Assembly (NCBI RefSeq): GCF_905475395.1
Contig: NC_058338.1
Span: forward strand, 46,597,935-46,661,934
Source: Chrysoperla carnea
Taxonomy: Eukaryota; Arthropoda; Insecta; Neuroptera; Chrysopidae
Length of the DNA stretch: 64,000 bases
Direction: 5' to 3'
Shown: piece by piece, positions 1,595 to 55,801 of the stretch
Layout: every line of letters begins with the position of its first letter
How positions within the stretch are numbered: the stretch's first letter is position 1
Notes under the pieces: generated by a model
The model's input: the letters and a program-made list of their open reading frames with translations, nothing else
Database searches by the model: none
What the model was told of the DNA's origin: nothing
Program-made: the position numbers and the translations under genes

Positions 1595-1599
1595 TAGTG

Positions 1600-2820: not shown

Positions 2821-2824
2821 TTTT

Positions 2825-3180: not shown

Positions 3181-3436
3181 AAGCAAAAGAGTAGTGAAAT
3201 TACTTATCAAATAAATTGTTATTTCACAACAAAAGTTTGATTTTTTTTACGATGTATGCAATAAAGAAAAATCTATTACAAAATTATTGCAACAGTTTGC
3301 TTAAAAATTACTAAAATTAATTCGTATTTTGAAAATAGATACTTATTTGGAAATATTTTTGTTACAAATAGTTAATTAATTTTCTAGCTTTTCTTACAGT
3401 GTGGTACGTTGTTTAAGTTAATATAAGTGATCATCA

Positions 3437-3509
3437 GCCGAAATAGCTCAGTTGGGAGAGCGTTAGACTGAAGATCTAAAGGTCCCTGGTTCGATCCCTG
3501 GTTTCGGCA
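3437..3509 (+). tRNA. tRNA-Phe (anticodon GAA)
   Basis: A 73-nt complete cloverleaf with no intron. The acceptor stem is GCCGAAA/TTTCGGC with discriminator A. The D arm is GCTC...GAGC. The anticodon arm is TTAGA-CTGAAGA-TCTAA with GAA at positions 34-36. The variable loop is AGGTC and the T loop is TTCGATC. The internal box A (TAGCTCAGTTGGGAGAGCG) and box B (GGTTCGATCCC) promoters are intact, and a run of eight T about 7 bp downstream would serve as the Pol III terminator. CCA is not encoded, as expected of a eukaryotic gene. Oddity: the T stem reads CCTGG/CCTGG, giving a central U-U mismatch where arthropod tRNA-Phe normally has a pair. The gene is probably functional, though it could be a slightly decayed copy. 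Confidence 0.95.
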
Positions 3510-3515
3510 GTTACT

Positions 3516-3523
3516 TTTTTTTA
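3516..3523 (+). terminator. Pol III oligo-T terminator of tRNA-Phe
   Basis: An eight-T run a few bases after the tRNA 3' end, the standard RNA polymerase III stop signal. Confidence 0.75.
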
Positions 3524-3576
3524 TATTTACGTACACTGTTTAATTCTCAAAAAATGGACTAATAGCTGTCTTTTTA

Positions 3577-3863
3577 TTCCATGTATATATAAAATACATC
3601 AAAGTATACTAAGTTTAGTCAAAAGATTGTAATGCTTAAAAATATTGATGGTACGAAAAAAAATTTGGTATAGGTTGTCATAAAATCGCCTAAATAGTAC
3701 ATTTCCGGTTGTCAGTCTGGATATCCGACCTTCTGTCAGTGGACACGATAATTCAAAAACGAAAAGAGATATCAAGCTGAAATTTATTGCGTGGTCGCGA
3801 CATAAAAAGTGAGGTGAGTTCGTAAATGACCAATCTAGGTCCAGGTCTTGGGTCCGTAGGACC
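3577..3863 (+). repeat. Dispersed repeat family A, copy 2 (inverted to copy 1)
   Basis: Starts with 'ccatgtatatata', continues through 'aagtatactaagtttagtc', a ccggttgtcagtctgg-like block and 'aaaacgaaaagagatatcaagct', and ends in 'ggtcttgggtccgtagg'. This is the reverse complement of the order in copy 1. With copy 1 it brackets the tRNA-Phe gene. Confidence 0.6.
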
Positions 3864-3869
3864 TGTAAG

Positions 3870-5450
3870 TCCGTTATGTGTGGTCGATTCTAACGTATAT
3901 AGGTGGGATCAGATCCTATATAGATGTTGGATTGAGGCAAAAGGTCCTTGCTTTAAGTTGGAATCAATGCTTAGGATAAATTTTTTTTATACATTTTTAA
4001 GCTTTATAAGCTTTTGATTAAATTTTATATAGGACAAGGTGTGAAAAGTGGAACATTGGGCATAGTGGAACAATCGTAAAATTTGTATCTTATTCAAAGA
4101 AAATTTCTGAAGGAATTACACAGAATTATTAAGTTAACATGACTCAATAATTCAATGTAATTCGTTTTGAAACTATTTTGGGTTCCGTATTGTACCGAGC
4201 CTCACCTGCTCTTAGTCCTGGTTTATTACATACCTAATTAATACACTTTGGGCGTTAAGTTGGAGGTAGTAGTTACATATTGTTTGAGATTGGTACAGTT
4301 TTTAAGACACTAGCGTATTTCAATAAATAATACTTTAATGAATGATATATTATGAGATTTTTAATAATATTTGTGTTATGTAAAAGTTTGGAAGTAATAA
4401 TTGAAGAATATTATCTCTCTCACGACAAGAATCATTTAAGATATTTTTACCCAAAATACATTCATAAATATGGGAAATTTTTTTATTCTAAACTTTAAAA
4501 TTTGAGGAAAAATTAAAAATTCGAGGTGGATCAATATAAACATAAACGTGCAATTGGTACTAAATATGGTGAGTTTGTAGGAAATTTTACATTTTTGTTA
4601 AATAAAGTTTTATGTTATCTAGCCGTCGCGTCAAGTTCATATATATTTTACTGAAGATATTGTTTTATACTAATTATATTAAAATACTTTTCAAATAAGC
4701 TCCAATAATTACATGCTTTAGATAATTTTCTTGGTTTTAGAAATCAGTGCTTTGGCCTGTTCATTTTCCATTATAGTATAATTTTCTTTATCTTGTAAAC
4801 CTTTAATTAAACAGTTAAAAAAAGATTTCCGACGTTGCCTATTAAAATTTTCTTTAAATATTGATTGGTAGATTTCGACAAAATTTGATTTAAATATTTC
4901 GATCCGGGTTATTTACAAGTTTAGACAAGAATTAAAAGCGTTTTTCTTATGTATTGTAACATCTAAAATTTAATGGTTGTGACTATGGTTTTAAATAATT
5001 TACTAAAGAAAATTCAAATGAGAGACATTTCCTATTAAAAAAAATCTAACAAATAATTGAAAAGATATTCAAATGATTGTTAATATAAACATTTATATTT
5101 TCTGCTAATATCAAAAATTGAATAAAAAATTACATTTGAATTCGTCCTCCGACCAACAAGCTACCAAGCTTAGTTGGCCCTAACACAGTCAGTAGTTATA
5201 ACTTAGCACAAGCACATCGTTCCAGTGAACCCCGTGCGTGTAAGTTCTGATTGGTTAAGCCATTAAACTGAGTAACTATACATTCCTTAAACATCGCGCA
5301 ATAATATAGTTCAATAAAACGTCTTTATATGAAGTTTATTAAATGAATTGAGAAAATTTTATAAAATAAAACTATTGATAAACACTGTTCTAATGATGTA
5401 AATGTATTAATTTTTAAGATTTAATTGATAAATGTTGAGTTTTTCATGTA
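3870..5450. other. AT-rich DNA, no gene recognised
   Basis: No convincing open frame or repeat boundary. A moderately GC-richer patch at 5,150-5,250 contains an inverted CCAAT-type motif (gattggtt, ~5,247). It could belong to the promoter region of the downstream plus-strand gene, but that is speculative. Confidence 0.4.
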
Positions 5451-5656
5451 TTTATAAGTGTAGTAATACTTTTAGAAGAGTCGGCCATATTTGTTAAAGA
5501 ACTACTTTCTTTTACCATTTGGACAAAGCATCTTCAGATGGTATTGTAGCCGCGAAGTGTAATATGTGTTGATTGAGTTTTTGTGTTTATTATATGTTGA
5601 CGTTGTGAAAATTCTTGTGAAAATAACAATAAATCTGTGTGAAAAACATCACAAAA

Positions 5657-5689
5657 ATGCTGTGTTTGTACAAATTTTTGAGTGTGTGA
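5657..5689 (+). CDS. Upstream ORF in the candidate 5' leader (10 codons)
   Basis: An ATG in an acceptable context (acaaaaATG) followed by nine codons and TGA. It lies 135 bp before the putative main start. If it is in the mature leader it would be a short uORF. No other sign of function. Confidence 0.25.
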   Translation: MLCLYKFLSV

Positions 5690-5800
5690 TCAATTTTCAA
5701 TCTTAATTTAAGTGAATTTGGTGTTGTTTTATTTGTATTTATTATTCTAAGTGTGTTGATTTTTTTTTTGATTTTTTGTATGTGTTTTTTACGTTAACCC

Positions 5801-5863
5801 ATGTGGGATGTTGTGGCGTTAAAATGTGGATTACAAACTTTGGACGAAATTGGATTACCATAA
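5801..5863 (+). CDS. Overlapping upstream ORF (20 codons)
   Basis: An ATG 23 nt before the putative main start opens a frame that runs through it in another register and stops at 5,861-5,863. A third ATG (5,808) opens a four-codon frame ending at 5,822. Scanning ribosomes would meet these first, so they could lower translation of the main frame, if transcription includes this leader. Confidence 0.25.
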   Translation: MWDVVALKCGLQTLDEIGLP

Positions 5864-5914
5864 CGTCAATACTATTACTTGTTTTTCTTGGATTTTCAGT
5901 TGATTTATCAACAG
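5824..5914 (+). CDS. Candidate first coding exon of a secreted or membrane protein (signal-peptide-like)
   Basis: The ATG opens 30 codons plus one base, ending at a consensus donor (ACAG|GTATGT). The peptide begins MWITNFGRNW, followed by a hydrophobic core (ITSILLLVFLGFSV) and then DLST. This is a classic signal-peptide shape: a basic N-region, about 14 hydrophobic residues and small or polar residues after them. The start was chosen because earlier ATGs open frames that stop at once. The exon ends in phase 1, and a phase-1 micro-exon candidate lies far downstream at 53,654. The product is not recognised. A very long first intron after a signal-peptide exon is common in insect cell-surface receptor genes, but that is analogy only. 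Confidence 0.55.
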
Positions 5915-5924
5915 GTATGTAATG

Positions 5925-7380
5925 TTTCTTATATTATTTTTAGAATATAGAATTCTTAACAAGTGGTTTGTGTGTTCTCTTCCAATCCAACTGTTGTATG
6001 TTTCATATTTATTTTTGTATCGGTAGTTCGTTATACTTTACTTGCGACTCCGTATGTGATTTTAAACTTATTTTAAGAAATTTCAACGGTAGATCGAACG
6101 CAGAAACAACGATTTTATATAGATAATTTTTTCCCCTTTTGGCTGAGAAATATTAGACCGGTCGAAAGTTTTTCTCAATTGTTGAGAACAATTTTTTAAT
6201 TAACCAAGCTTCTCTGAATAATTATCTTCAGCTAAAAATTAACGCCTATGCAAATTTAAATTTCTTACGGTATTGACAATTTTGGCCAATAAAAAAACTA
6301 TTTTTAAGTCGGTTTTCCCGTCCTATTTTGCCAATAATCCAAGGTTCAACAACATTTTGGTTAAAAAATAAAAAAAATTTTTGAGCGAAAACTGTTGTTC
6401 GATAATTCGTTTTCGTAGGACCTTTCGTTAATAAGGTAAAAGGTTTTGCATAACTTAGCTATGTACTTACTAGAAAATCGAATAAAATACTACATACCTT
6501 ATTGCATCTACAATGGGTCGGTTTTCGAGATACAAATAAAATTTTTATGGTATTATCGCACTGAAACATATTATGCTTTAAAGCGTTTTGAAATTCTTAT
6601 TTTCTCAGAAACTAATCCAAAAGCGTTTCCGATCTATAATTGTTAATTAATTTTTATTCTCTTGTTGCAAAAACTCAATTTTTTTTACCTCTTTCGCCTA
6701 CCGCAAAATAGAAAAAAAACTTCCCTCGTTGAAAAACAGCAGGGCGAATTTAGACGCTTGCTACAATTTTCGAGATAAATAAATATCAATATTTAATAAT
6801 TTAAGCGTTTTGAAGCTGTCGGTCGATTCTCTCAAAAATACTCCTCAATACTATCAAAAAAACTTATTCCCAATTTGCAACACAATTAACTTTTATAGAA
6901 AATTGTGTGCTGTGTCTTACGGCTCTTGTTTCGATGGAAAACTTGAAATGTTGAAAAATTTTAATTTGCATTTATTTACCCCTGGAAGGCGTCTATTCCA
7001 ACAGGCAGAAAATTCGATTATTCTCTTTTAGAAACAATATTGATTCCTTGGGCAAAAATCTAAATTGCTTATGTGAGAGTTGTCATAATATATTTTTGTA
7101 AGATCAATAACCGGCTAAAGACGGAACTATGCCTCCTTTTAAAGCTTAATGAAAACTACTACTTTCTTCTTTCAAATTTATCAAACTAATAAAAATTTCT
7201 AAGATACTTTAATAAAAAAAAGAAAACATACTAAAATTATTAAAATACTTCTTATAGTTCTTTAAGTTCTTACAGTCGGGATTTATTTATAGTTAGAAAA
7301 TGCTTTCGAGTTTCAAGAAAACTCATTTGTTTGTCATTAAACTTTGTATATCATGAAATTATCTTGAATTTATTCGTTGT
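5925..7380. other. AT-rich sequence, nothing recognised
   Basis: Short open frames near 6,446-6,646 and 6,810-7,031 have AT-driven composition (rich in I, Y, F, N and K), no domain and no splice context. I treat them as chance. Several 'ttttcgagat' motifs suggest decayed repeats without clear borders. Confidence 0.45.
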
Positions 7381-7384
7381 GTGC

Positions 7385-7795
7385 GTAGTCATGGTATAGG
7401 CAATAAAATCGAAGCCAGCGCTTCCAGTGAAAAATTTTGACGATAAAGGAGGCTGTTATGACTTATTTACAATTCTTTACATGTAAATGTTATAGAAATG
7501 TCAAATTAAAATTATTGAAAAACACTAATTAATTAAACTTAATACATTAAAAATTGTGAAAATAAGAAATTAAATTGCACAAGTATTATTTTTTAAATGT
7601 AAAATATCATAACGAACTGCATTTATTTAAATTTGTGAGACAATAATATTAAATTTTCAATGTGAGTCATAAATGCAATCCATACAATTATATATGCATC
7701 CATACAATTGTATAATGAAAGTAGTGTATCGTTATGGAAACGCCTCCAATAAAACTCGCGCACGGTGCGAATAGTCATAGTTCTTATCTCAATAT
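7385..7795 (-). repeat. Dispersed repeat family B, copy 1
   Basis: The reverse complement of blocks shared with 26,478-26,895 and 52,160-52,525: 'gtaacgatacactacttt', 'attgtatggattgcattta', 'cattgaaaatttaatatt', 'gtctcacaaat', 'ttctataacatt' and 'catgtaaagaattg', ending near 'cataacagcctcctttat' and 'gcgcttccagtg'. About 410 bp with no coding capacity. A minus-strand open frame over 7,623-7,940 is a by-product of the repeat. Confidence 0.65.
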
Positions 7796-34968: not shown

Positions 34969-34977
34969 GCCCATGCG
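34969..34977. repeat. Left 9-bp target-site duplication of the foldback element
   Basis: GCCCATGCG immediately before the left terminus (ATGAAGCTGAAG). It is identical to 51,159-51,167. Confidence 0.85.
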
Positions 34978-35414
34978 ATGAAGCTGAAGTTGGCCGCTAA
35001 AAAATACCCACCAAAAAAAAATAGTCGAGAAAATAAAGGATAAAAAAAAAACATTATTTGTGACTTAGAATGGAATAATTTAGAACGTTATATTATATGA
35101 TCAACTCCCAGTATCATTAAGCTACCCATAAAAAGTGAAATTAATAAGAAAATCTTGGGAAAATCATCCTCTTTGTATTATTATGACCAACAAATTTATT
35201 TTGCTTACGCTAGTTTTAAGCAACGTTTAACAATGAGTAATGAAAATAAGATATTCAACAAAAAAAATATGGAAAATTTCGGAAAATATGTAAGAAAATT
35301 TTCTTATGAAAAACATTTTTTTTTGCAAAATTTTCTTGAATTTTGAAAGACATGCTAATGTGTGTGAGTACAAATTTTTTGTGTTTGCGAATTTTCTGAG
35401 TGTTTTTTTTACGT
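34978..35414 (+). repeat. Foldback outer domain, left arm
   Basis: Non-tandem terminal domain, nearly identical in reverse complement to 50,721-51,158. It differs by only a few substitutions (for example aatgaaaataag at the left against the complement of aataaaaataag at the right). Confidence 0.85.
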
Positions 35415-38400
35415 TGCGGGTGTTTTATGGAAAATTGACAATAACTTTTTTCAGCAAAATAAAATTTTTTTTTAAGGTAATTTTTTGGAATAACGAATCT
35501 ATTTCGAAACTATCTATCATCATTAGAAAAGCGTTTGAAAATTATTTTGTGAATTTTAGTTGAATTTTAAAATGGATATTTTTCTTATAGAATAGTCATG
35601 TTTTTTGAAAAACGTCATAATTTTCTTTAGCAAAATAAGTTTTTCGTTTAATAAAATTTTCTCGATAAATGAAAGGCTATTGAAACATTTAAGCATTATT
35701 AGATGACTGTTTGAAAACCATACCATATCTTAAATGAAAGTATAATATGAACATTGTTAAAAAATTAGCGGGTGTTTTTTGGAAAAGTGACAATAACTTT
35801 TTTCAGCAAAATAAAATTTTTTTTTAAGGTAATTTTTTGGAATAACGAATCTATTTCGAAACTATCTATCATCATTAGAAAAGCGTTTGAAAATTATTTT
35901 GTGAATTTTAGTTGAATTTTAAAATGGATATTTTTCTTATAGAATAGTCATGTTTTTTGAAAAACGTCATAATTTTCTTTAGCAAAATAAGTTTTTCGTT
36001 TAATAAAATTTTCTCGATAAATGAAAGGCTATTGAAACATTTAAGCATTATTAGATGACTGTTTGAAAACCATACCATATCTTAAATGAAAGTATAATAT
36101 GAACATTGTTAAAAAATTAGCGGGTGTTTTTTGGAAAAGTGACAATAACTTTTTTCAGCAAAATAAAATTTTTTTTTAAGGTAATTTTTTGGAATAACGA
36201 ATCTATTTCGAAACTATCTATCATCATTAGAAAAGCGTTTGAAAATTATTTTGTGAATTTTAGTTGAATTTTAAAATGGATATTTTTCTTATAGAATAGT
36301 CATGTTTTTTGAAAAACGTCATAATTTTCTTTAGCAAAATAAGTTTTTCGTTTAATAAAATTTTCTCGATAAATGAAAGGCTATTGAAACATTTAAGCAT
36401 TATTAGATGACTGTTTGAAAACCATACCATATCTTAAATGAAAGTATAATATGAACATTGTTAAAAAATTAGCGGGTGTTTTTTGGAAAAGTGACAATAA
36501 CTTTTTTCAGCAAAATAAAATTTTTTTTTAAGGTAATTTTTTGGAATAACGAATCTATTTCGAAACTATCTATCATCATTAGAAAAGCGTTTGAAAATTA
36601 TTTTGTGAATTTTAGTTGAATTTTAAAATGGATATTTTTCTTATAGAATAGTCATGTTTTTTGAAAAACGTCATAATTTTCTTTAGCAAAATAAGTTTTT
36701 CGTTTAATAAAATTTTCTCGATAAATGAAAGGCTATTGAAACATTTAAGCATTATTAGATGACTGTTTGAAAACCATACCATATCTTAAATGAAAGTATA
36801 ATATGAACATTGTTAAAAAATTAGCGGGTGTTTTTTGGAAAAGTGACAATAACTTTTTTCAGCAAAATAAAATTTTTTTTTAAGGTAATTTTTTGGAATA
36901 ACGAATCTATTTCGAAACTATCTATCATCATTAGAAAAGCGTTTGAAAATTATTTTGTGAATTTTAGTTGAATTTTAAAATGGATATTTTTCTTATAGAA
37001 TAGTCATGTTTTTTGAAAAACGTCATAATTTTCTTTAGCAAAATAAGTTTTTCGTTTAATAAAATTTTCTCGATAAATGAAAGGCTATTGAAACATTTAA
37101 GCATTATTAGATGACTGTTTGAAAACCATACCATATCTTAAATGAAAGTATAATATGAACATTGTTAAAAAATTAGCGGGTGTTTTTTGGAAAAGTGACA
37201 ATAACTTTTTTCAGCAAAATAAAATTTTTTTTTAAGGTAATTTTTTGGAATAACGAATCTATTTCGAAACTATCTATCATCATTAGAAAAGCGTTTGAAA
37301 ATTATTTTGTGAATTTTAGTTGAATTTTAAAATGGATATTTTTCTTATAGAATAGTCATGTTTTTTGAAAAACGTCATAATTTTCTTTAGCAAAATAAGT
37401 TTTTCGTTTAATAAAATTTTCTCGATAAATGAAAGGCTATTGAAACATTTAAGCATTATTAGATGACTGTTTGAAAACCATACCATATCTTAAATGAAAG
37501 TATAATATGAACATTGTTAAAAAATTAGCGGGTGTTTTTTGGAAAAGTGACAATAACTTTTTTCAGCAAAATAAAATTTTTTTTTAAGGTAATTTTTTGG
37601 AATAACGAATCTATTTCGAAACTATCTATCATCATTAGAAAAGCGTTTGAAAATTATTTTGTGAATTTTAGTTGAATTTTAAAATGGATATTTTTCTTAT
37701 AGAATAGTCATGTTTTTTGAAAAACGTCATAATTTTCTTTAGCAAAATAAGTTTTTCGTTTAATAAAATTTTCTCGATAAATGAAAGGCTATTGAAACAT
37801 TTAAGCATTATTAGATGACTGTTTGAAAACCATACCATATCTTAAATGAAAGTATAATATGAACATTGTTAAAAAATTAGCGGGTGTTTTTTGGAAAAGT
37901 GACAATAACTTTTTTCAGCAAAATAAAATTTTTTTTTAAGGTAATTTTTTGGAATAACGAATCTATTTCGAAACTATCTATCATCATTAGAAAAGCGTTT
38001 GAAAATTATTTTGTGAATTTTAGTTGAATTTTAAAATGGATATTTTTCTTATAGAATAGTCATGTTTTTTGAAAAACGTCATAATTTTCTTTAGCAAAAT
38101 AAGTTTTTCGTTTAATAAAATTTTCTCGATAAATGAAAGGCTATTGAAACATTTAAGCATTATTAGATGACTGTTTGAAAACCATACCATATCTTAAATG
38201 AAAGTATAATATGAACATTGTTAAAAAATTAGCGGGTGTTTTTTGGAAAAGTGACAATAACTTTTTTCAGCAAAATAAAATTTTTTTTTAAGGTAATTTT
38301 TTGGAATAACGAATCTATTTCGAAACTATCTATCATCATTAGAAAAGCGTTTGAAAATTATTTTGTGAATTTTAGTTGAATTTTAAAATGGATATTTTTC

Positions 38401-41400
38401 TTATAGAATAGTCATGTTTTTTGAAAAACGTCATAATTTTCTTTAGCAAAATAAGTTTTTCGTTTAATAAAATTTTCTCGATAAATGAAAGGCTATTGAA
38501 ACATTTAAGCATTATTAGATGACTGTTTGAAAACCATACCATATCTTAAATGAAAGTATAATATGAACATTGTTAAAAAATTAGCGGGTGTTTTTTGGAA
38601 AAGTGACAATAACTTTTTTCAGCAAAATAAAATTTTTTTTTAAGGTAATTTTTTGGAATAACGAATCTATTTCGAAACTATCTATCATCATTAGAAAAGC
38701 GTTTGAAAATTATTTTGTGAATTTTAGTTGAATTTTAAAATGGATATTTTTCTTATAGAATAGTCATGTTTTTTGAAAAACGTCATAATTTTCTTTAGCA
38801 AAATAAGTTTTTCGTTTAATAAAATTTTCTCGATAAATGAAAGGCTATTGAAACATTTAAGCATTATTAGATGACTGTTTGAAAACCATACCATATCTTA
38901 AATGAAAGTATAATATGAACATTGTTAAAAAATTAGCGGGTGTTTTTTGGAAAAGTGACAATAACTTTTTTCAGCAAAATAAAATTTTTTTTTAAGGTAA
39001 TTTTTTGGAATAACGAATCTATTTCGAAACTATCTATCATCATTAGAAAAGCGTTTGAAAATTATTTTGTGAATTTTAGTTGAATTTTAAAATGGATATT
39101 TTTCTTATAGAATAGTCATGTTTTTTGAAAAACGTCATAATTTTCTTTAGCAAAATAAGTTTTTCGTTTAATAAAATTTTCTCGATAAATGAAAGGCTAT
39201 TGAAACATTTAAGCATTATTAGATGACTGTTTGAAAACCATACCATATCTTAAATGAAAGTATAATATGAACATTGTTAAAAAATTAGCGGGTGTTTTTT
39301 GGAAAAGTGACAATAACTTTTTTCAGCAAAATAAAATTTTTTTTTAAGGTAATTTTTTGGAATAACGAATCTATTTCGAAACTATCTATCATCATTAGAA
39401 AAGCGTTTGAAAATTATTTTGTGAATTTTAGTTGAATTTTAAAATGGATATTTTTCTTATAGAATAGTCATGTTTTTTGAAAAACGTCATAATTTTCTTT
39501 AGCAAAATAAGTTTTTCGTTTAATAAAATTTTCTCGATAAATGAAAGGCTATTGAAACATTTAAGCATTATTAGATGACTGTTTGAAAACCATACCATAT
39601 CTTAAATGAAAGTATAATATGAACATTGTTAAAAAATTAGCGGGTGTTTTTTGGAAAAGTGACAATAACTTTTTTCAGCAAAATAAAATTTTTTTTTAAG
39701 GTAATTTTTTGGAATAACGAATCTATTTCGAAACTATCTATCATCATTAGAAAAGCGTTTGAAAATTATTTTGTGAATTTTAGTTGAATTTTAAAATGGA
39801 TATTTTTCTTATAGAATAGTCATGTTTTTTGAAAAACGTCATAATTTTCTTTAGCAAAATAAGTTTTTCGTTTAATAAAATTTTCTCGATAAATGAAAGG
39901 CTATTGAAACATTTAAGCATTATTAGATGACTGTTTGAAAACCATACCATATCTTAAATGAAAGTATAATATGAACATTGTTAAAAAATTAGCGGGTGTT
40001 TTTTGGAAAAGTGACAATAACTTTTTTCAGCAAAATAAAATTTTTTTTTAAGGTAATTTTTTGGAATAACGAATCTATTTCGAAACTATCTATCATCATT
40101 AGAAAAGCGTTTGAAAATTATTTTGTGAATTTTAGTTGAATTTTAAAATGGATATTTTTCTTATAGAATAGTCATGTTTTTTGAAAAACGTCATAATTTT
40201 CTTTAGCAAAATAAGTTTTTCGTTTAATAAAATTTTCTCGATAAATGAAAGGCTATTGAAACATTTAAGCATTATTAGATGACTGTTTGAAAACCATACC
40301 ATATCTTAAATGAAAGTATAATATGAACATTGTTAAAAAATTAGCGGGTGTTTTTTGGAAAAGTGACAATAACTTTTTTCAGCAAAATAAAATTTTTTTT
40401 TAAGGTAATTTTTTGGAATAACGAATCTATTTCGAAACTATCTATCATCATTAGAAAAGCGTTTGAAAATTATTTTGTGAATTTTAGTTGAATTTTAAAA
40501 TGGATATTTTTCTTATAGAATAGTCATGTTTTTTGAAAAACGTCATAATTTTCTTTAGCAAAATAAGTTTTTCGTTTAATAAAATTTTCTCGATAAATGA
40601 AAGGCTATTGAAACATTTAAGCATTATTAGATGACTGTTTGAAAACCATACCATATCTTAAATGAAAGTATAATATGAACATTGTTAAAAAATTAGCGGG
40701 TGTTTTTTGGAAAAGTGACAATAATTTTTTTTTAAGGTAATTTTTTGGAATAACGAATCTATTTCGAAACTATCTATCATCATTAGAAAAGCGTTTGAAA
40801 ATTATTTTGTGAATTTTAGTTGAATTTTAAAATGGATATTTTTCTTATAGAATAGTCATGTTTTTTGAAAAACGTCATAATTTTCTTTAGCAAAATAAGT
40901 TTTTCGTTTAATAAAATTTTCTCGATAAATGAAAGGCTATTGAAACATTTAAGCATTATTAGATGACTGTTTGAAAACCATACCATATCTTAAATGAAAG
41001 TATAATATGAACATTGTTAAAAAATTAGCGGGTGTTTTTTGGAAAAGTGACAATAATTTTTTTTTAAGGTAATTTTTTGGAATAACGAATCTATTTCGAA
41101 ACTATCTATCATCATTAGAAAAGCGTTTGAAAATTATTTTGTGAATTTTAGTTGAATTTTAAAATGGATATTTTTCTTATAGAATAGTCATGTTTTTTGA
41201 AAAACGTCATAATTTTCTTTAGCAAAATAAGTTTTTCGTTTAATAAAATTTTCTCGATAAATGAAAGGCTATTGAAACATTTAAGCATTATTAGATGACT
41301 GTTTGAAAACCATACCATATCTTAAATGAAAGTATAATATGAACATTGTTAAAAAATTAGCGGGTGTTTTTTGGAAAAGTGACAATAACTTTTTTCAGCA

Positions 41401-41739
41401 AAATAAAATTTTTTTTTAAGGTAATTTTTTGGAATAACGAATCTATTTCGAAACTATCTATCATCATTAGATAAGCGTTTGAAAATTATTTTGTGAATTT
41501 TAGTTGAATTTTAAAATGGATATTTATCTTATAGAATAGTCATGTTTTTTGAAAAACGTCATAATTTTCTTTAGCAAAATAAGTTTTTCGTTTAGTAAAA
41601 TTTTCTCGATAAATGAAAGGCTATTGAAACATTTAAGCATTATTAGAATAGTGTTTGAAAATTAATTTCAATGATTCCAATATCTTAAATGAAAGTATAA
41701 TATGAACATTGTTAAAAAATTAGCGGGTGTTTTTTGGAA
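35415..41739 (+). repeat. 352-bp tandem array, left arm (18 units)
   Basis: Unit starts, taken at the motif gcgggtgtttttt, fall at 35,415, 35,767, 36,119, 36,471 and so on every 352 bp to 40,695. Two 332-bp units follow (both lack the same 20 bp after 'gacaataa'), then a 363-bp edge variant from 41,359, then a partial unit. Units 2-15 look identical by eye. Each unit is an old dimer: its first half ('tttttggaaaagtgacaata...') and second half ('tttttgaaaaacgtcataat...') align with each other over about 174 bp. No open frame runs through the unit. Confidence 0.93.
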
Positions 41740-42825
41740 ATTTCCACTTCGAAAAATGAATAATGTATACTTTGTATAATTAATTAAAAAATTTTTTTCA
41801 ATTGTCGCGCTAATTTTGCACGTTACGATAAAATTAGTTATAAAAACAAATATCTTGGAGTAATTCAATGGTCTGGTACTGTACCTGGTACCTAACATTT
41901 TTTTGTAACGTACTCCTACACACGCACTACATATTTATTTATTATATTTTTGTTTTGTTTCAATGTTCAATAAAATGGGCCAAGAGCGTTTTCTTGGTGT
42001 GAGAACTTCGCCATAAATTAATCTATCAATAAGTTGTTCTTGAAAAAAATCTACAGCATAGTTTTTTAAGTTATGATGTTGTAACATGATAACTACACAA
42101 CTAGATCGTGTTTTGTTAATAGAAATTGCATTTATATGTTACCTTTGATTCCATTAATCCTTAATTGCACTAAAAATATCAATTTAATCACGATTTCGAA
42201 ATATTAATGCACTTTTACTTACACATCTTTCACTCTTCAATATTTTTTATCTCACATGAACTTCACAGAAATTGAAATTTCAACACTATAGATATTTAAT
42301 TTTTGCACTTTTAAAACTAAGGTATACAAACACATTAGAACAATTAACAAACTGGTAAATTTAAACAACAATATAAGCAAGAGATTTAAACGATTAAATT
42401 TTATAATTGTTATTTTCAACAACAAAACTTATGTTAACATTTTTTTACATGTATAATTCACCAACTTAAATTTAACATCATAATTCATAATTGGAAATAT
42501 ATTTTTTTTAATAAATACACATCAAATATAATTTTATTTATAAATAGTGTTTTTGAAACTATACCCTTCGATATTTTGTATGTGCGCATGCATATGACTT
42601 GTTTTAACAAAGTACATTTGTTTGGTGTGAAATAGTAATAAATATTTTTTTTAAAATATGCATTACCATAGACATGAAAAAATAATTTTTTTCTGGATTG
42701 GAATGGAAGAATTTTATTAAAATCTTTTAATATAAAAATATAAGTCCAAGAAAATTGTCAAATGTTTGTAGTTTCTTGAAATTACAAGATCAGCCATTTA
42801 TAAACGTACAGTCATGTTTTTCACT
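41740..42825 (+). repeat. Foldback inner domain, left arm
   Basis: Non-tandem segment from 'tccacttcgaaaaatgaa' to 'cgtacagtcatgtttttcact'. It pairs with 44,201-45,280 in reverse complement, with more mismatches and small indels than the outer domains. A minus-strand frame at 41,668-41,898 is a chance product. Confidence 0.8.
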
Positions 42826-44200
42826 GTAAATGAAAATTTTCGGAAATTGTATTATCGCCTAAAAAATTATACATATATTTTTCAATATTTATATGCAATA
42901 CAATCGCACTTATGTGTCACTATTAATAAAAAAATTTTAACAAAAAAAAATCCGACATCAAAAATTTCAAAACAAATTAATATGCACTCTAGTGAAAAGT
43001 ACAACAAGTGAAAACAAACAATTGACTGAGTTAATTGTTTAAATACCATGCATAGTCAGTGTTGATTTCTTTATCACATAACACATACAAACATGTGACA
43101 CATACATAACTGATAATCAAGTATAGTACATATTATAAAATTTCCGCCTAATTGGCGCCTTCACGGATAAACAGTAATGTTTACGAAAAAATGTTTCAGA
43201 CAAAAGTTGTTTAATTTTTGATAAGGAACATTTTTTACACTTAAACTTTTGTTCTATCTCTAGCGGTTTACAAGATGGGTCCTACGGACCCAAGACCCAA
43301 TTGACCGATCGTGTCCACAGACGGACGGCCGGTCGGACGGACGGACGGACGGACAACCGGAAATGGACTAATTAGGTGGTTTTATGAACACCTAGGACAA
43401 AATTTTTTTTCTAGCACCATTATTTTTAAGCGTTACAAACTTGGGGCTAAACTTAATATACTATGCCTATTTCATATATACATGGTATAAAAATAACGAT
43501 TATGTAATTATTGTTTTTTGAGAGTCGGTGCATGTCAAGGAAACAACTGTCACAGAACAACAAAATAGTTTGCTACATTAACTTGGCTGACACCGGCTCC
43601 AAAAATAACATAATTGTAACTACATTATGTTACCGTTTTCTATTTTTAGTTTTAGTGCATATTAATTTGTTTTGAAATTTTGTGAGTTTTGTTAATCTGA
43701 AGTACCACCACGAATTGATTTGTCATTTACAAAGAGTCATCGAAATCCGTTGGAGTGACATTGAGTAATTAGTGCATTGGTGTCGCACATACTTAATACA
43801 AATTTAACACTTCTATGATTTTCTCATGCATTCCATTACCAGAATTGGGCCAACTTGAAATGGGAAGAGAAGCACCAGCTTTTAAAAAGAAAAAGTTCAA
43901 AAATAAAAAAAATAATACAGTCGAATTGAGCACATCCTACTTTTTTGTTTGACGTCGGTTAAAAATCAGGGTCTACCGGATTGTTGGAATGTTCGGAGGA
44001 CAGAATTGTATAGAATTACGCATAATAGTTATCGTGAGTGAAACGAAAATAATCTTTTTGGATAAAGAAAATCATCACTGGTCGTTACTGTGATTTTTAA
44101 TAATGTCAGATTAGTAATATTGTATTGTATAGGAATATTGAAAATATAAGTACCTACAAATTTTCAGGTGTTGTAATAAAACAGATTCCGAAAATGAGAG
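42826..44200. other. Central loop of the foldback element
   Basis: 1,375 bp of sequence not shared between the arms. It contains a family A dispersed repeat (43,152-43,493) and a small imperfect inverted repeat at 43,500-43,620 (gagtcggtg ... caccggctcc). The rest is AT-rich with no transposase-like frame. The 65-codon frame at 42,814-43,011 straddles the arm boundary and is not convincing. Confidence 0.7.
43152..43493 (-). repeat. Dispersed repeat family A, copy 3 (inside the foldback loop)
   Basis: Same block order as 2,825-3,180: 'cttcacggataaacag', 'tgtttacgaaaaaat', 'acttttgttctatctc', 'gcggtttacaagat', 'cccaagacccaatt', (GGAC)n at 43,330-43,352, 'aagcgttacaaacttgg' and 'ggctaaactta', ending in 'catggtataaaaa'. 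Its presence in the loop means it either inserted after the foldback formed or was captured. Confidence 0.7.
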
Positions 44201-45280
44201 AGTGAAAAACATGACTGTACGTTGAGGCTGATCTTGTAATTTCAAGAAACTACAAACATTTGAAAATTTTCCTGGACTTTATTTTAAAAGATTTTAATAA
44301 AATTCTTCTATTACAATCCAGAAAAAAAAAATTATCTTTTCATGTCTATGGTATTGTATATTTTAAAAAAAATATTACTACTATACATTAACACCAAAAA
44401 AGTGTACTTTGGTTAAGAAAGTCATATACATGCGCACTTTTATCATACAAAATATCGAAGGGTATATTTTCAAAAACACTATTTATAAATAAAATTATAT
44501 TTGATGTGTATTTATTAAAAAAATATATTTCCAATTATGAATTATGATGTTAAATTTAAGTTGGTGAATTATACATGTAAAAAAATGTTAACATAAGTTT
44601 TGTTGTTGAAAATAACAATTATAAAATTTAATCGTTTAAATCTCTTGCTTATATTGTTGTTTAAATTTACCAGTTTGTTAATTGTTCTAATGTGTTTGTA
44701 TACCTTAGTTTTAAAAGTGCAAAAATTAAATATCTATAGTGTTGAAATTTCAATTTCTGTGAAGTTCATGTGAGATAAAAAATATTGAAGAGTGAAAGAT
44801 GTGTAAGTAAAAGTGCATTAATATTTCGAAATCGTGATTAAATTGATATTTTTAGTGCAATTAAGGATTAATGGAATCAAAGGTAACATATAAATGCAAT
44901 TTCTATTAACAAAAACAAGACCCAGTTATGTGGTTATCATGTTACACATCATAACTTAAAAAACTATGCTGCAGATTTTTTTTCAAGAACAACTTATTGA
45001 TAGATTAATTTATGGCGAAGTTTAATTTATACCGAGAAAAAGCTCTTGGCCCATTTTATTGAACATAGAAACAAAACTTATAAATATGTAGTGCGTGTGT
45101 ATGAGTACATTACAAAAAAATTTTTTGTACCAAGTACAGTACGAGACCATTAAATTACTCCAAGCATATTTGTTTTTATTTCTTATTTTATCGTAACGTG
45201 CAAAATTAGCGCGACAATTGAACAATTTTTTTAAAATTAATTATACAAAGTATACATATTTTATTTTTCGAAGTGGCTTG
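44201..45280 (-). repeat. Foldback inner domain, right arm
   Basis: Reverse-complement partner of 41,740-42,825. Examples are 'ggctgatcttgtaatttcaa' against 'ttgaaattacaagatcagcc', and 'aagtggctt' against the left 'tccacttcg'. The frame at 45,022-45,225 on the minus strand is the mirror of non-coding left-arm DNA. Confidence 0.8.
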
Positions 45281-48200
45281 AGGAAGTCTCCGTTTGATAA
45301 TTTTACAAAATAAAAAGATAACTTTAATTAAAAACCCCTCAAAAGTTAGCAAACAATGACTAATTCTAGACAGAATGTTTCGAAATGCATTTGTTATTCC
45401 AAAAAATTATCTTAAAAAAAAATTTTATTTTGCAGAAAAAAATTATTGCCAATTTTCCAAAAAACACCCGCTAATTTTTTAACAATGTTCATATTATACT
45501 TTCATTTAAGATATTGGAATCATTGAAATTAATTTTCAAACACTATTCTAATAATGCTTAAATGTTTCAATTGCCTTTCATTTATCGAGAAAATTTTATT
45601 AAACGAAAAACTTATTTTTCTAAAGAAAATTATGACGTTTTTCAAAAAACATGACTATTCTATAAGATAAATACCCATTTTAAAATTCAACTAAAATTCA
45701 CAAAATAATTTTCAAACGCTTATCTAATGATGATAGATAGTTTCGAAATAGATTCGTTATTCCAAAAAATTACCTTAAAAAAAAATTTTATTTTGCTGAA
45801 AAAAGTTATTGTCACTTTTCCAAAAAACACCCGCTAATTTTTTAACAATGTTCATATTATACTTTCATTTAAGATATGGTATGGTTTTCAAACAGTCATC
45901 TAATAATGCTTAAATGTTTCAATAGCCTTTCATTTATCGAGAAAATTTTATTAAACGAAAAACTTATTTTGCTAAAGAAAATTATGACGTTTTTCAAAAA
46001 ACATGACTATTCTATAAGAAAAATATCCATTTTAAAATTCAACTAAAATTCACAAAATAATTTTCAAACGCTTTTCTAATGATGATAGATAGTTTCGAAA
46101 TAGATTCGTTATTCCAAAAAATTACGTTAAAAAAAAATTTTATTTTGCTGAAAAAAGTTATTGTCACTTTTCCAAAAAACACCCGCTAATTTTTTAACAA
46201 TGTTCATATTATACTTTCATTTAAGATATGGTATGGTTTTCAAACAGTCATCTAATAATGCTTAAATGTTTCAATAGACTTTCATTTATCGAGAAAATTT
46301 TATTAAACGAAAAACTTATTTTGCTAAAGAAAATTATGACGTTTTTCAAAAAACATGACTATTCTATAAGAAAAATATCCATTTTAAAATTCAACTAAAA
46401 TTCACAAAATAATTTTCAAACGCTTTTCTAATGATGATAGATAGTTTCGAAATAGATTCGTTATTCCAAAAAATTACCTTAAAAAAAAATTATATTTTGC
46501 TGAAAAAAGTTATTGTCACTTTTCCAAAAAACACCCGCTAATTTTTTAACAATGTTCATATTATACTTTCTTTAAGATATGGTATGGTTTTCAAACAGTC
46601 ATCTAATAATGCTTAAATGTTTCAATAGCCTTTCATTTATCGAGAAAATTTTATTAAACGAAAAACTTATTTTGCTAAAGAAAATTATGACGTTTTTCAA
46701 AAAACATGACTATTCTATAAGAAAAATATCCATTTTAAAATTCAACTAAAATTCACAAAATAATTTTCAAACGCTTTTCTAATGATGATAGATAGTTTCG
46801 AAATAGATTCGTTATTCCAAAAAATTACCTTAAAAAAAAATTTTATTTTGCTGAAAAAAGTTATTGTCACTTTTCCAAAAAACACCCGCTAATTTTTTAA
46901 CAATGTTCATATTATACTTTCATTTAAGATATGGTATGGTTTTCAAACAGTCATCTAATAATGCTTAAATGTTTCAATAGCCTTTCATTTATCGAGAAAA
47001 TTTTATTAAACGAAAAACTTATTTTGCTAAAGAAAATTATGACGTTTTTCAAAAAACATGACTATTCTATAAGATAAATATCCATTTTAAAATTCAACTA
47101 AAATTCACAAAATAATTTTCAAACGCTTTTCTAATGATGATAGATAGTTTCGAAATAGATTCGTTATTCCAAAAAATTACCTTAAAAAAAAATTTTATTT
47201 TGCTGAAAAAAGTTATTGTCACTTTTCCAAAAAACACCCGCTAATTTTTTAACAATGTTCATATTATACTTTCATTTAAGATATGGTATGGTTTTCAAAC
47301 AGTCATCTAATAATGCTTAAATGTTTCAATAGCCTTTCATTTATCGAGAAAATTTTATTAAACGAAAAACTTATTTTGCTAAAGAAAATTATGACGTTTT
47401 TCAAAAAACATGACTATTCTATAAGAAAAATATCCATTTTAAAATTCAACTAAAATTCACAAAATAATTTTCAAACGCTTTTCTAATGATGATAGATAGT
47501 TTCGAAATAGATTCGTTATTCCAAAAAATTACCTTAAAAAAAAATTTTATTTTGCTGAAAAAAGTTATTGTCACTTTTCCAAAAAACACCCGCTAATTTT
47601 TTAACAATGTTCATATTATACTTTCATTTAAGATATGGTATGGTTTTCAAACAGTCATCTAATAATGCTTAAATGTTTCAATAGCCTTTCATTTATCGAG
47701 AAAATTTTATTAAACGAAAAACTTATTTTGCTAAAGAAAATTATGACGTTTTTCAAAAAACATGACTATTCTATAAGATAAATATCCATTTTAAAATTCA
47801 ACTAAAATTCACAAAATAATTTTCAAACGCTTATCTAATGATGATAGATAGTTTCGAAATAGATTCGTTATTCCAAAAAATTACCTTAAAAAAAAATTTT
47901 ATTTTGCTGAAAAAAATTATTGTCAATTTTCGAAAAACACCCGCTAATTTTTTAACAATGTACTTATATTAGATAGGGTAATCATTGAAAATAGTAGCCA
48001 AACGGTGACCAATTCTACCGAAATTGTTTCAATAGCCTTTCATTTATCAAGAAAATTTGCTTAAAAGAAAAAGTTATTTTGCTAAAGAAAATTATGACGT
48101 TTTCCAAACATGACTATTCTATAAGATAAATACCCATTTTAAAATTCAACTAAAATTCACTATATAGTTTTCAAACACTGATCTAATGGTGCTTAAATGT

Positions 48201-50720
48201 TTCAATAGCCTTTCATTTATCGAGAAAATTTGCTTAAAAGAAAAAGTTATTTTGCTAAAGAAAATTATGACGTTTTCCAAACATGACTATTCTATAAGAT
48301 AAATACCCATTTTAAAATTCAACTAAAATTCACTATATAGTTTTCAAACAGTGACCTAATGATGATAGATAGTTTCGAAATGCATTCGTTATTCCAAAAA
48401 ATTACCTTAAAAAAAAATTTTATTTTGCTGTAAAAAATTATTGTCAATTTTCGAAAAACACCCGCTAATTTTTTAACAATGTACTTATATTAGATAGGGT
48501 AATCATTGAAAATAGTAGCCAAACGGTGACCAATTCTACCGAAATTGTTTCAATAGCCTTTCATTTATCAAGAAAATTTGCTTAAAAGAAAAAGTTATTT
48601 TGCTAAAGAAAATTATGACGTTTTCCAAACATGACTATTCTATAAGATAAATACCCATTTTAAAATTCAACTAAAATTCACTATATAGTTTTCAAACACT
48701 GATCTAATGGTGCTTAAATGTTTCAATAGCCTTTCATTTATCAAGAAAATTTGCTTAAAAGAAAAAGTTATTTTGCTAAAGAAAATTATGACGTTTTCCA
48801 AACATGACTATTCTATAAGATAAATACCCATTTTAAAATTCAACTAAAATTCACTATATAGTTTTCAAACACTGATCTAATGGTGCTTAAATGTTTCAAT
48901 AGCCTTTCATTTATCGAGAAAATTTGCTTAAAAGAAAAAGTTATTTTGCTAAAGAAAATTATGACGTTTTCCAAACATGGCTATTCTATAAGATAAATAC
49001 CCATTTTAAAATTCAACTAAAATTCACTATATAGTTTTCAAACACTGATCTAATGGTGCTTAAATGTTTCAATAGCCTTTCATTTATCAAGAAAATTTGC
49101 TTAAAAGAAAAAGTTATTTTGCTAAAGAAAATTATGACGTTTTCCAAACATGACTATTCTATAAGATAAATACCCATTTTAAAATTCAACTAAAATTCAC
49201 TATATAGTTTTCAAACACTGATCTAATGGTGCTTAAATGTTTCAATAGCCTTTCATTTATCGAGAAAATTTGCTTAAAAGAAAAAGTTATTTTGCTAAAG
49301 AAAATTATGACGTTTTCCAAACATGACTATTCTATAAGATAAATACCCATTTTAAAATTCAACTAAAATTCACTATATAGTTTTCAAACAGTGACCTAAT
49401 GATGATAGATAGTTTCGAAATGCATTCGTTATTCCAAAAAATTACCTTAAAAAAAAATTTTATTTTGCTGAAAAAAATTATTGTCAATTTTCGAAAAACA
49501 CCCGCTAATTTTTTAACAATGTACTTATATTAGATAGGGTAATCATTGAAAATAGTAGCCAAACGGTGACCAATTCTACCGAAATTGTTTCAATAGCCTT
49601 TCATTTATCAAGAAAATTTGCTTAAAAGAAAAAGTTATTTTGCTAAAGAAAATTATGACGTTTTCCAAACATGACTATTCTATAAGATAAATACCCATTT
49701 TAAAATTCAACTAAAATTCACTATATAGTTTTCAAACACTGATCTAATGGTGCTTAATTGTTTCAATAGCCTTTCATTTATCGAGAAAATTTGCTTAAAA
49801 GAAAAAGTTATTTTGCTAAAGAAAATTATGACGTTTTCCAAACATGACTATTCTATAAGTTAAATACCCATTTTAAAATTCAACTAAAATTCACTATATA
49901 GTTTTCAAACACTGATCTAATGATGCTTAAATGTTTCAATAGCCTTTCATTTATCGAGAAAATTTGCTTAAAAGAAAAAGTTATTTTGCTAAAGAAAATT
50001 ATGACGTTTTCCAAACATGACTATTCTATAAGATAAATACCCATTTTAAAATTCAACTAAAATTCACTATATAGTTTTCAAACACTGATCTAATGGTGCT
50101 TAATTGTTTCAATAGCCTTTCATTTATCGAGATAATTTGCTTAAAAGAAAAAGTTATTTTGCTAAAGAAAATTATGACGTTTTCCAAACATGACTATTCT
50201 ATAAGTTAAATACCCATTTTAAAATTCAACTAAAATTCACTATATAGTTTTCAAACACTGATCTAATGATGCTTAAATGTTTCAATAGCCTTTCATTTAT
50301 CGAGAAAATTTGCTTAAAAGAAAAAGTTATTTTGCTAAAGAAAATTATGACGTTTTCCAAACATGACTATTCTATAAGATAAATACCCATTTTAAAATTC
50401 AACTAAAATTCACTATATAGTTTTCAAACACTGATCTAATGGTGCTTAATTGTTTCAATAGCCTTTCATTTATCGAGAAAATTTGCTTAAAAGAAAAAGT
50501 TATTTTGCTAAAGAAAATTATGACGTTTTCCAAACATGACTATTCTATAAGATAAATACCCATTTTAAAATTCAACTAAAATTCACTATATAGTTTTCAA
50601 ACAGTGACCTAATGATGATAGATAGTTTCGAAATGCATTCGTTATTCCAAAAAATTACCTTAAAAAAAAATTTTATTTTGCAGAAAAAAGTTATCAGTCA
50701 ATTTTCCAAAAAACACCCGC
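45281..50720 (-). repeat. Tandem array of the right arm: 2-, 3-, 6- and 7-monomer periods of ~174 bp
   Basis: The motif cccgctaatttttt marks unit edges at 45,469, 45,832, 46,184, 46,536, 46,887, 47,239, 47,591, 47,942, 48,463, 49,503 and 50,718. The spacings are 363, 352, 352, 351, 352, 352, 351, 521, 1,040 and 1,215 bp. All are close to whole multiples of about 174 bp (2, 3, 6 and 7 monomers). In the outer part, monomers recur exactly every 173 bp, for example 'tgtttcaatagcctttcat' at 48,720, 48,893, 49,066 and 49,239. A diverged partial unit (about 45,350-45,468) sits at the inner edge. The 363-bp edge variant matches the innermost unit of the left arm. Confidence 0.9.
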
Positions 50721-51158
50721 AACGTAAAAAAAACACTCAGAAAATTCGCGAACACAAAAAATTTGTACTCACGCACATTACCATGTCTTTCAAAATTCAA
50801 GAAAATTTTCCAAAAAAAAATTTTTTTCATAAGAAAATTTTCTTACATATTTTCCGAAATTTTCCATATTTTTTTTGTTGAATATCTTATTTTTATTACT
50901 CATTGTTAAACGTTGCTTAAAACTAGCGTAAGCAAAATAAATTTGTTGGTCATAATAATACAAAGAGGATGATTTTCCCAAGATTTTCTTATTAATTTCA
51001 CTTTTTATGGGTAGCTTAATGATACTGGGAGTTGATCTTATAATATAGCGTTCTAAATTATTCCATTCTAAGTCACAAATAATGTTTTTTTTTTATCCTT
51101 TATTTTCTCGACTATTTTTTTTTGGTGGGTATTTTTTAGCGGCCAACTTCAGCTTCAT
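50721..51158 (-). repeat. Foldback outer domain, right arm
   Basis: Mirror of 34,978-35,414, ending in ...GCGGCCAACTTCAGCTTCAT. The 89-codon plus-strand frame at 50,612-50,881 spans the array/outer-domain border and is a Lys-rich by-product. Confidence 0.85.
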
Positions 51159-51167
51159 GCCCATGCG
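51159..51167. repeat. Right 9-bp target-site duplication of the foldback element
   Basis: GCCCATGCG immediately after the right terminus, identical to 34,969-34,977. Confidence 0.85.
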
Positions 51168-53699: not shown

Positions 53700-55530
53700 T
53701 AAATTAACATTTACTCAACTATTCGGAAATTTCAAAAAAAAATCTCCAAAACGGGCTTTGTTCTTGTTTTCTCATTCTTGACAATAGGGTTTTCTTCTAT
53801 ATTTGAAAAAGTACTTCAAAATGTTGATTTTGCTAATAAAAAGCCACCAAAAGTTTATTTCGGAAAAATACACACATTTTCTTGCCAAAAACTTAAATTA
53901 AATTTTAAACCTTTTTTAAACTGTCAAAAACGCGGGCATCCAATTTGGTGACGTAATATCGGTATCATTATACGAAATAACACAGATAAGCTTGACAGAT
54001 ATATTCAAAGACAACTAATTATAATAAATATAAATATTGATTATCTATGGATATATTATACCTAGATGTCTACACTGAACTAACTGATGGTCTATGGTTC
54101 ATACCGATATGACATCACATCAGGGCTTGTCCGCGTTTTAGGTCACGTGATATACAGTTTAAAAATTACGATTTTTAATTTAAAAAAAAAAAGTGCTTTT
54201 ATGAGTCGAAATCAGAATATTTAAGTATATTTTTACATAAATTTTAACTTTTTTCAAGTTTTATAATTTATTTTTCACTACCGAAAGTACCCTATAGTTT
54301 CAAATTCCAATATGAATTATTGTATACTCGTATCATTTTCAAAGTGCAAAAATGGATGCTTAAATAAATGAACCAAATATAATTTAAAGTAAGAAAATTT
54401 TTGTGGATATCACATTCGCTATATCACTATCGGTGTGGACGCCATTCTGTATACTGTATTGAGAGAATAAATAGCATAATACTGCATTGACTCGCCTGAA
54501 GAAAATAAGAGTACTGTAGTTCAAATAAAAATTTACATCCCATATTATAATAATTTCGTTCTCATAAACTTAAAATGTATCTCTCTCACAATTGCATATA
54601 ATATTTACATTAAAAACAAAGATAGATGTATAATAATTGTATTTAAACTTTATGATAACATAACATTGTAAATTGTAACAAAGTTTACTCACTGGTTCAT
54701 ACCTCAGACCTCGGTATATGCAAGTAATGTAGTTAATGCATTATTACTACATTTTTATCGTAATATATGTGATATCGAAATATGTTGTACCCAACAAACT
54801 AACTCACTGTGATGATGCCTCTGTGACTATAATGTTCACAGTTGGTTTATTGTTATCTTTTTTCCTCACTAGTTTCATTAGTTAAGTTTTGCTCTGTTGT
54901 TATTGTAAGTATAGCTGAATCAACGGTAAATAAAACACGGAAGGGGGACGACGACGACATGTTCATTTTTTTTCGTTTGTTGAGTTGAGTGACGGTTTAT
55001 CATTTACCATCAAAATATGTTGTTATTATTTATTTATTTATTTATTATTTATATGCTTTTTTTATTAACTCCTCAAAACACGATGTAGTACATTTCATGT
55101 AATGTCGGTTTTTTTTAACCAGGGTTCTGAAGGTATTTTAACCATATTCGATGTACCCAAAAAAATTTCGAAAATTGTATTTAGTCACGAATACAAACTA
55201 ACAAATTAAATATCAAGGATTAAAAAATTTTAAATTTTTGATTCGTTGTTCGCGTAAAGACTAATTCATCCTAAATTCTGTTAAATTAACGTTCTGAATT
55301 GTTTAATACCTGTTTATAAACAACTCAACTCGAATTCTTTCGATTATCGTTAATTTTTCTGATACTAGCTTTCCAACCCAATCGCGTTTCCTCGTTTTTA
55401 AATAATTATGTGTGGTGAAATTACTTCTAGAGCCGATTAATTACTTTTAAGACCTCAGAAAGAACTCAGAGCCTGCGTAGTATTTGAAAATTATATTTTT
55501 TGAAATTTCGAAAGAGAATTTTGCTATAAT
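53700..55530. other. AT-rich sequence, nothing recognised
   Basis: A (tta/ttta)n simple repeat lies at about 55,020-55,050. A slightly GC-richer patch at 54,690-54,960 (ctcagacctcgg ... acgacgacgacatg) has no open frame. No exon is supported. Confidence 0.4.
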
Positions 55531-55532
55531 AT

Positions 55533-55801
55533 TTTTATACCTTGTATGTATGAAAGATATCAAAGTATATTAAATCTTAACTTTGTAACGCTTAGAAAAA
55601 TACTGATGCTACAAACAAGATGCGATAAATGTCCATAAAATCACAGTAGTCCATGTCCATCTGCCAAATCACTTAGGTAGTCTGTCCACCCGATAACTCA
55701 AGAACAAAAAGAGATCGAGATGCAATTTTTATAGCATGCTGTGCATCAAAAAAGTGACTTTGAATTCGTAAACGAGCAATATAGGTCAATTGGGTCATAT
55801 T
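55533..55801 (+). repeat. Dispersed repeat family A, copy 4
   Basis: 'ttttataccttgtatgtatg', 'aaagatatcaaagtatatt', 'tttgtaacgcttagaaaaat', 'actgatgctac', 'acccgataactcaagaacaa' with 'aaagagatcgag', and 'caattgggtcat' follow the order of 3,577-3,863. Confidence 0.65.

Follow-up and report, generated by a model that had tools for sequence, protein, structure and literature searches.

Long inverted ends that carry tandem repeats have been described in several DNA transposons. Tetris of Drosophila virilis is built from a flanking domain, tandem repeats of ~220 bp in both arms, an inner domain, and a non-coding middle; it makes 8-10-bp duplications, and its authors, who report no autonomous copy, linked it to the Mutator superfamily (PMC4079207). 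Rehavkus-1_TC of Tribolium castaneum, 9.5 kb long, has inverted termini that contain TCsat23, a 164-bp satellite, mostly as 5 and 8 monomers (PMC10218199), and the Rehavkus group combines 9-bp duplications with a minisatellite, within a MULE superfamily whose duplications measure 8-11 bp (PMC6446971). Muta1, an active mosquito MULE of 3.2 kb with its own transposase and 145-bp ends containing subterminal tandem repeats of 12 bp, produced 8- or 9-bp duplications in a yeast assay (PMC5225508), and a survey of arthropod MULEs gives end lengths of 13-1193 bp in its text, with a maximum of 1527 bp tabulated (PMC13359780). The foldback element FB4 has ends of ~700 bp and 9- to 10-bp duplications and is non-autonomous, its transposase being unknown according to a 2021 paper (PMC8277862). 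Tm1 of Meloidogyne and Galileo of Drosophila likewise have inverted ends with tandem repeats, the number of which can vary between the two ends, and Galileo is known to have made chromosomal inversions in Drosophila. Here, we describe an element of this general plan in the lacewing Chrysoperla carnea, found at positions 34978-51158 of a 64-kb window (the whole stretch of DNA analyzed, C2:46597935-46661934 in the assembly). This copy, hereafter E01, is a foldback element with inverted ends, a tandem array in each arm, an inner stem, and a loop.

Our preferred reading, to which we assign a probability of roughly two in three, is that E01 belongs to a recently active, non-autonomous foldback DNA transposon family of C. 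carnea, which a MULE-type transposase encoded elsewhere would mobilize and whose arms, less securely, may be rewritten during repair. The first-pass annotation of the window had proposed a foldback transposon at these coordinates with an exact 9-bp target duplication, and both calls stand: the boundaries and inverted ends are exact, and direct reading of the + strand places GCCCATGCG on either side, at 34969-34977 and 51159-51167. These flanking occurrences are the only two on the + strand of the window, with 0 on the other strand, and two random 9-mers drawn at the window's base composition would agree with a chance of 2.3e-5. The outer terminal inverted repeats, each of 438 bp and starting exactly at ATGAAGCTGAAGTTGGCCGC, occupy 34978-35415 (+) and 50721-51158 (-) and match each other at 430 of 438 positions, with 8 mismatches.

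The same termini recur elsewhere in the genome, as the first-pass annotation had suggested checking. At two or fewer mismatches, the terminal 26 bases returned 39 genome matches, against 0 for a control pattern, and the outer end used as a genome query returned 40 (45 candidates, 40 scored). Facing ends form 13 pairs, located on C1 (3), C2 (6), C5 (1), and C6 (3), which correspond to E01, E02-E12, and E03b, a copy nested in E03; 14 of the 39 ends are unpaired. The elements span 8.9-23.3 kb, and full-length sequence was covered for 10 of the 13 and for E12 too, with E09 and E11 represented by their ends alone. An exact 8-bp target duplication flanks five pairs (E04, E05, E07, E08, and E12), a 9-bp duplication four (E01, E03, E09, and E10), and an 8-bp duplication with one mismatch a single pair (E11), although the right end of E10 is eroded, so that its edge was set by eye, and the A-rich repeat of E07 is weaker evidence. 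When left and right flanks were deliberately mismatched, none of the 156 combinations agreed exactly over 7-11 bp. The idea that every copy would show a 9-bp duplication was therefore not sustained: the stagger at insertion is 8 or 9 bp rather than a fixed 9, and 10 of the 13 pairs (one with a mismatch) fall in the 8-11-bp range of MULEs. Matching duplications and dispersed copies show that insertion goes through a staggered cut.

Some copies are very recent, as is evident from their near-identical centres: those of E02, E04, and E05 are 2-6 substitutions apart and those of E06 and E07 differ by 1, in ~3.4 kb, with 40-76 substitutions between the four groups (E01; E02/E04/E05; E06/E07; E08). 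Including the 438-bp ends, arms reach up to 10.8 kb, and the E02/E04/E05 group, young as it is, already has arm lengths of 5.1-10.8 kb, implying, provided the assembly is correct, that array length changes rapidly. Monomers were decomposed in the 18 arms of nine elements, leaving out E10 and E12. The order end-array-stem-loop-stem-array-end is common to seven of these nine (E01, E02, and E04-E08), with E03 and E03b having no labelled stem or loop; outside the decomposed set, the arrays of E10 and E12 are short, and their interiors contain several kb of other DNA. The E03 and E03b pair, at C2:43092871-43113724, presents one copy nested in the array of another, and the inner E03b has no target duplication.

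The unit of the family's arrays is a monomer of ~174 bp. The 352-bp unit proposed in the first pass is real in E01, where it is a dimer pairing a 178-bp monomer, A, with a related one of 174 bp, B, and the two are 82% alike when measured in a sister copy; a long array of this dimer is found in E01 alone among the nine decomposed elements, the others having runs of B after most A and short A-B stretches near the inner end. Cutting by anchor words yielded 677 monomers, 8-59 per arm, among which A had 47 distinct sequences and B 72. In the left arm of E01, the array (35416-41740, +) comprises 18 A + B dimers, including two 332-bp units near its inner end: A measures 178 bp except for two copies of 158 bp, and B 174 bp except for the innermost, of 185 bp. 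Most of this array, 35436-40724 (+), is an exactly periodic 352-bp repeat of 5289 bp and 15.0 copies, with 0 mismatches at lag 352. The right array (45377-50720, -) contains 10 A and 20 B monomers, the innermost B again of 185 bp, and reads from the tip as A B6 A B5 A B2 followed by (AB)7, which is no plain mirror of the left. Its 13 outer B monomers are 20-23% divergent from left-arm B, and most of its inner units are identical to, or within 1% of, left-arm units. That both arms finish inward with the same B, longer by 11 bp, suggests descent from one arm.

Several comparisons bear on how the two arms of a copy come to be alike. The two 438-bp ends are identical within eight of the 13 pairs (E02, E03, E03b, and E04-E08), and the inner stems, compared arm against arm, show 36-42 differences in all seven elements that have stems. 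The centres of E02, E06, and E08 are ~2% apart, a divergence at which 8-10 differences would be expected in the 438-bp ends, as against the 0 or 1 observed. E03 carries end variants that are present on both its arms and in no other of the nine decomposed elements, and E04 (A38) and E08 (A47 and B34) similarly hold private monomers on both of their own arms. The longest exact match from the tip inward is to the sister arm in seven of nine elements, and in 0.9% of trials random pairing within subfamilies reaches the observed tip total. The two elements in which another arm matches further, E02 and E03b, are both among the three elements without a target duplication, as would be expected if they were recombinants. 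Sister arms of E03, E04, and E07 stay in register for ~3-4 kb (3.5-4 kb in E03 and E07). In E01, the right end is of the modern type, matching the ends of E06 and E07 without a mismatch. The left end has, at several of the 8 sites that differ, alleles also found in older or unpaired copies, with 4 recurring in an unpaired C1 end, 4 in E10, and 3 both in E11 and in an unpaired C3 end.

Under the preferred reading, a MULE-type transposase acting in trans would excise the element at its ends and reinsert it through a cut staggered by 8 or 9 bp. Less securely, the gap left by excision or breakage might then be filled in again with a sister copy or the other arm as template; such refilling would rewrite the arms from the tip inward and leave many sister ends alike, out-of-register pairing of the repair strands would change array length, and the inner stem and loop would escape rewriting. 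We put forward only tentatively, and regard as somewhat doubtful, the fuller picture of a transposon that rewrites its own halves, in which each arm would serve as repair template for the other, new end variants would take over both arms, and the satellite would grow, shrink, and spread with each move, E01, with one old-type and one modern-type end, having been caught half-way.

A number of observations weigh against the preferred reading. Three of the 13 pairs (E02, E03b, and E06) have no target duplication. Sister ends are unlike in five (E01, E09, E10, E11, and E12): those of E01 differ at the 8 sites mentioned above, those of E09 at 4 of 440, and those of the older E10, E11, and E12 by 9, 19, and 19, respectively, plus gaps. 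Each of the E09 arms departs from the common type by 2, a pattern suggestive of separate mutation of the two arms and one that shows no trace of exchange. Because E02, E03b, E04, E05, and E08 share one end type, sister identity among them is not independent evidence. Two of the seven tip matches are won narrowly (110 vs 90 bp in E01; 881 vs 856 bp in E06), arms of different elements of the same subfamily are also in register for 0.5-2.5 kb, and the subfamilies within which pairing was randomized were assigned by the analyst from centres and monomers.

Much of this is what would be seen if end likeness reflected recent common ancestry together with selection on transposase binding sites, with no exchange between the arms of an element, and we regard that explanation as a serious contender, though one with less than an even chance. 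The single identical end type of five elements, the near-equal register of same-subfamily arms from different copies, and the ends of E09 all speak for it. Ancestry does not readily explain why the end variants of E03 and the private monomers of E04 and E08 sit on both arms of their own element, or why in as many as seven of nine elements no arm matches further from the tip than the sister arm.

The enzyme itself is the second point on which the preferred reading is exposed. The mixture of 8- and 9-bp duplications resembles that of Muta1, whose ends also carry tandem repeats, and from this analogy we infer a MULE-type transposase probably acting in trans. In Galileo, additional sites bound by the transposase lie in the tandem repeats of the ends, so such arrays may be favoured by selection on binding. 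The relation to MULEs proposed in the first pass is thus supported by duplication size, but neither a MULE transposase with these ends nor the autonomous copy that it had suggested looking for was found in what was searched. A genome search with PF10551 gave 14 hits (35 candidates, 35 scored), of which 11 looked bacterial by eye and 3 eukaryotic, and none of these 3 had the family termini. Transposase domains were absent from the scanned parts of E12 (1900-6800, six frames) and of E10 (six frames over 740-4050 but the minus strand alone over 5780-7600). Inspection by eye of 3-8 kb inside six of the 14 unpaired ends (the other eight were not inspected inside) revealed fragments of arrays or ends together with interspersed repeats and unrelated sequence, with no transposase-like frame, and a Pfam scan of one of these six stretches (three forward frames and one open frame) gave no transposase. 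Altogether, the PF10551 search and the scanned interiors, none of them aimed at hAT, P, or Merlin, turned up no transposase with these ends. Furthermore, 8-bp duplications are also made by other superfamilies.

Three sets of coding frames were considered and rejected. The longest MULE-like frame, of 736 amino acids, has other termini and was rejected as the partner of the family, although it could conceivably act in trans on unlike ends. A whole-frame scan placed its ZSWIM RNaseH-like domain over the cut-off and matches to MULE and FAR1 just under it. It lies in a separate 2.8-kb MULE-like element with inverted ends of short tandem repeats, which is present at C1:139.76 Mb and C5:73.20 Mb in copies 98.9% alike and is apparently recent. 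The long frames of E10 (4054-5779) were set aside as encoding a reverse transcriptase (RVT_1, E 1e-15), which we read as a nested Penelope-like retroelement; next to it lies what we take to be a GIY-YIG-like neighbour, for which Pfam gave nothing. A frame in the ends, open for ~100-142 codons in some copies, was rejected as coding: 7.5% of simulated sequences reach 100 codons, substitutions fall 35/33/31 across codon positions, with 15 of 99 synonymous against 17% expected, and a protein search of a large database gave no match at E 0.001 (21 candidates). The window as a whole has no stop-to-stop frame of 120 codons, frames running off its ends not being counted, and a Pfam scan of E01 gave nothing above cut-off (six frames of the centre; four of six frames of the end). 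As a separate observation, the 11 MULE-domain hits at C1:138.28-139.40 Mb look by eye like bacterial IS256-type transposases and sit among frames that likewise resemble ankyrin-repeat and IS66-like proteins, so that this region may be endosymbiont DNA near the end of chromosome 1, either integrated or misplaced in scaffolding.

A different enzyme is accordingly the next explanation to be weighed, namely that the same foldback family is moved by another superfamily making 8-bp (or 8-9-bp) duplications, such as hAT, a P/Galileo-like group, or Merlin. Foldback architecture arises across superfamilies, Galileo itself being P-type, five of the 13 duplications measure exactly 8 bp, and the searches described above returned no MULE transposase with these ends. 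We nevertheless consider this unlikely, if by no means negligible: four pairs have 9-bp duplications, the 8/9 mixture is the Muta1 pattern, and Galileo copies carry 7-bp duplications, a length found in 0 of the 13 pairs.

Considerably less probable, in our view, is replication by way of a single strand folded into a hairpin, in which one arm would prime and template the other. The identity of sister ends in eight of 13 pairs and the long register of the E03 and E07 arms would suit such copying, but copying of a whole arm would also equalise the inner stems, which differ at 36-42 positions in every element that has them, and the target duplications point instead to staggered-cut insertion. That E01 is an artefact of assembly, or a satellite duplicated locally in inverted orientation with no transposon involved, is barely credible, since, even though assemblers struggle with long palindromes and exact tandem arrays and may get array length wrong, the flanks differ outside the element, the arms of E01 are unlike in order and sequence, HiFi reads and hifiasm underlie the assembly (PMC10116181), and the matching duplications in 10 of 13 dispersed pairs (one with a mismatch) refute this explanation as to the element's existence.

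The interior of E01 is partly paired. Its inner stem runs from 41744 to 42825 (+) in the left arm and from 44201 to 45276 (-) in the right, the two aligning with 1011 matches, 42 mismatches, and 52 gap positions, and continues inward at lower similarity at 42826-42929 (+) with its partner at 44094-44200 (-). A further short patch at 42961-43017 (+) pairs with 43625-43681 (-) at 77% identity, and the same 77% is found for the patchy pairing of 42714-42929 with 44094-44300. The 1.4-kb loop described in the first pass therefore exists but is not wholly unpaired, the portions left without a partner being a centre of 607 bp (43018-43624) and a stretch of 412 bp on its right side (43682-44093). Pieces of an interspersed repeat (43094-43495, +) fill about two-thirds of the loop centre and include a GACG microsatellite. 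Their relatives elsewhere in the window lie at 2760-2957, 3099-3178, and 3571-3717 and in the right flank, so that one interspersed repeat family is represented at 2760-3717, at 43094-43495, and near 55530-55615. Among the neighbours in the window are a tRNA-Phe (GAA) gene at 3437-3509 (+) and an open frame at 163-489 (-) that resembles a coiled-coil exon of an axonemal docking protein, although Pfam gave nothing for it.

An exact-word search of viral and prokaryote contigs with end or unit words gave 0 matches, a result uninformative on spread among insects, and no description of this family in lacewings appeared among the matches listed in the literature searched, with subscription papers and repeat libraries lying outside its reach. 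With many young copies of varied arm length in one HiFi assembly, the family lends itself to tests of how foldback arms are maintained and how satellites are born in transposons, and its many intact ends make it a good place to seek a foldback transposase. Long inverted arms may also be hotspots of rearrangement, in the manner of the Galileo inversions.

Set against the described systems, the lacewing family is close in plan to Tetris and Rehavkus-1_TC and departs from each of the systems in detail. Tetris, likened here by description, has a closely similar plan in a host of another order and a unit of ~220 bp vs ~174 bp. Rehavkus-1_TC, also compared by description, is alike in plan, whereas the lacewing family has 8-59 monomers per arm and 8- as well as 9-bp duplications. 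A transposase with a PHD finger marks Rehavkus, and in the lacewing family no transposase was seen. Muta1 has in common with it the 8- or 9-bp duplications and repeat-bearing ends, but small size and a transposase of its own are features of Muta1. Tm1 has ~14-bp repeats and a Phantom-type transposase, and Galileo combines a P-type transposase, characterized by a THAP domain, with duplications of 7 bp and ends of at most about 1.26 kb; both differ from the lacewing family in these respects. Membership in the Drosophila FB family was not supported, the first-pass annotation having proposed a giant relative or a convergent form. FB subrepeats are short, the family's duplications are not 9-10 bp throughout (9 bp in four of 13), and the lone sequence link is a GAAGyTGG octamer at positions 9-16 of both the FB4 and the lacewing ends. 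This octamer is equalled in register by 0.4% of shuffles but was noticed before being tested, and over 20 bases the two ends have 9 matches, an ordinary figure reached by 6% of shuffles. As for the suggestion that the element might be new, inverted ends with tandem repeats are already known in Tetris, Tm1, Galileo, and Rehavkus-1_TC, and what sets the lacewing family apart is extreme arm length: at 10.8 kb, its longest arms exceed severalfold any inverted ends reported in the accessible parts of the publications compared (~1.5 kb or less). Long inverted ends, mostly internally repeated, are thus a recurrent form, seen in Tetris, Tm1, Galileo, FB4, and Rehavkus-1_TC, of which the lacewing family is an extreme one.

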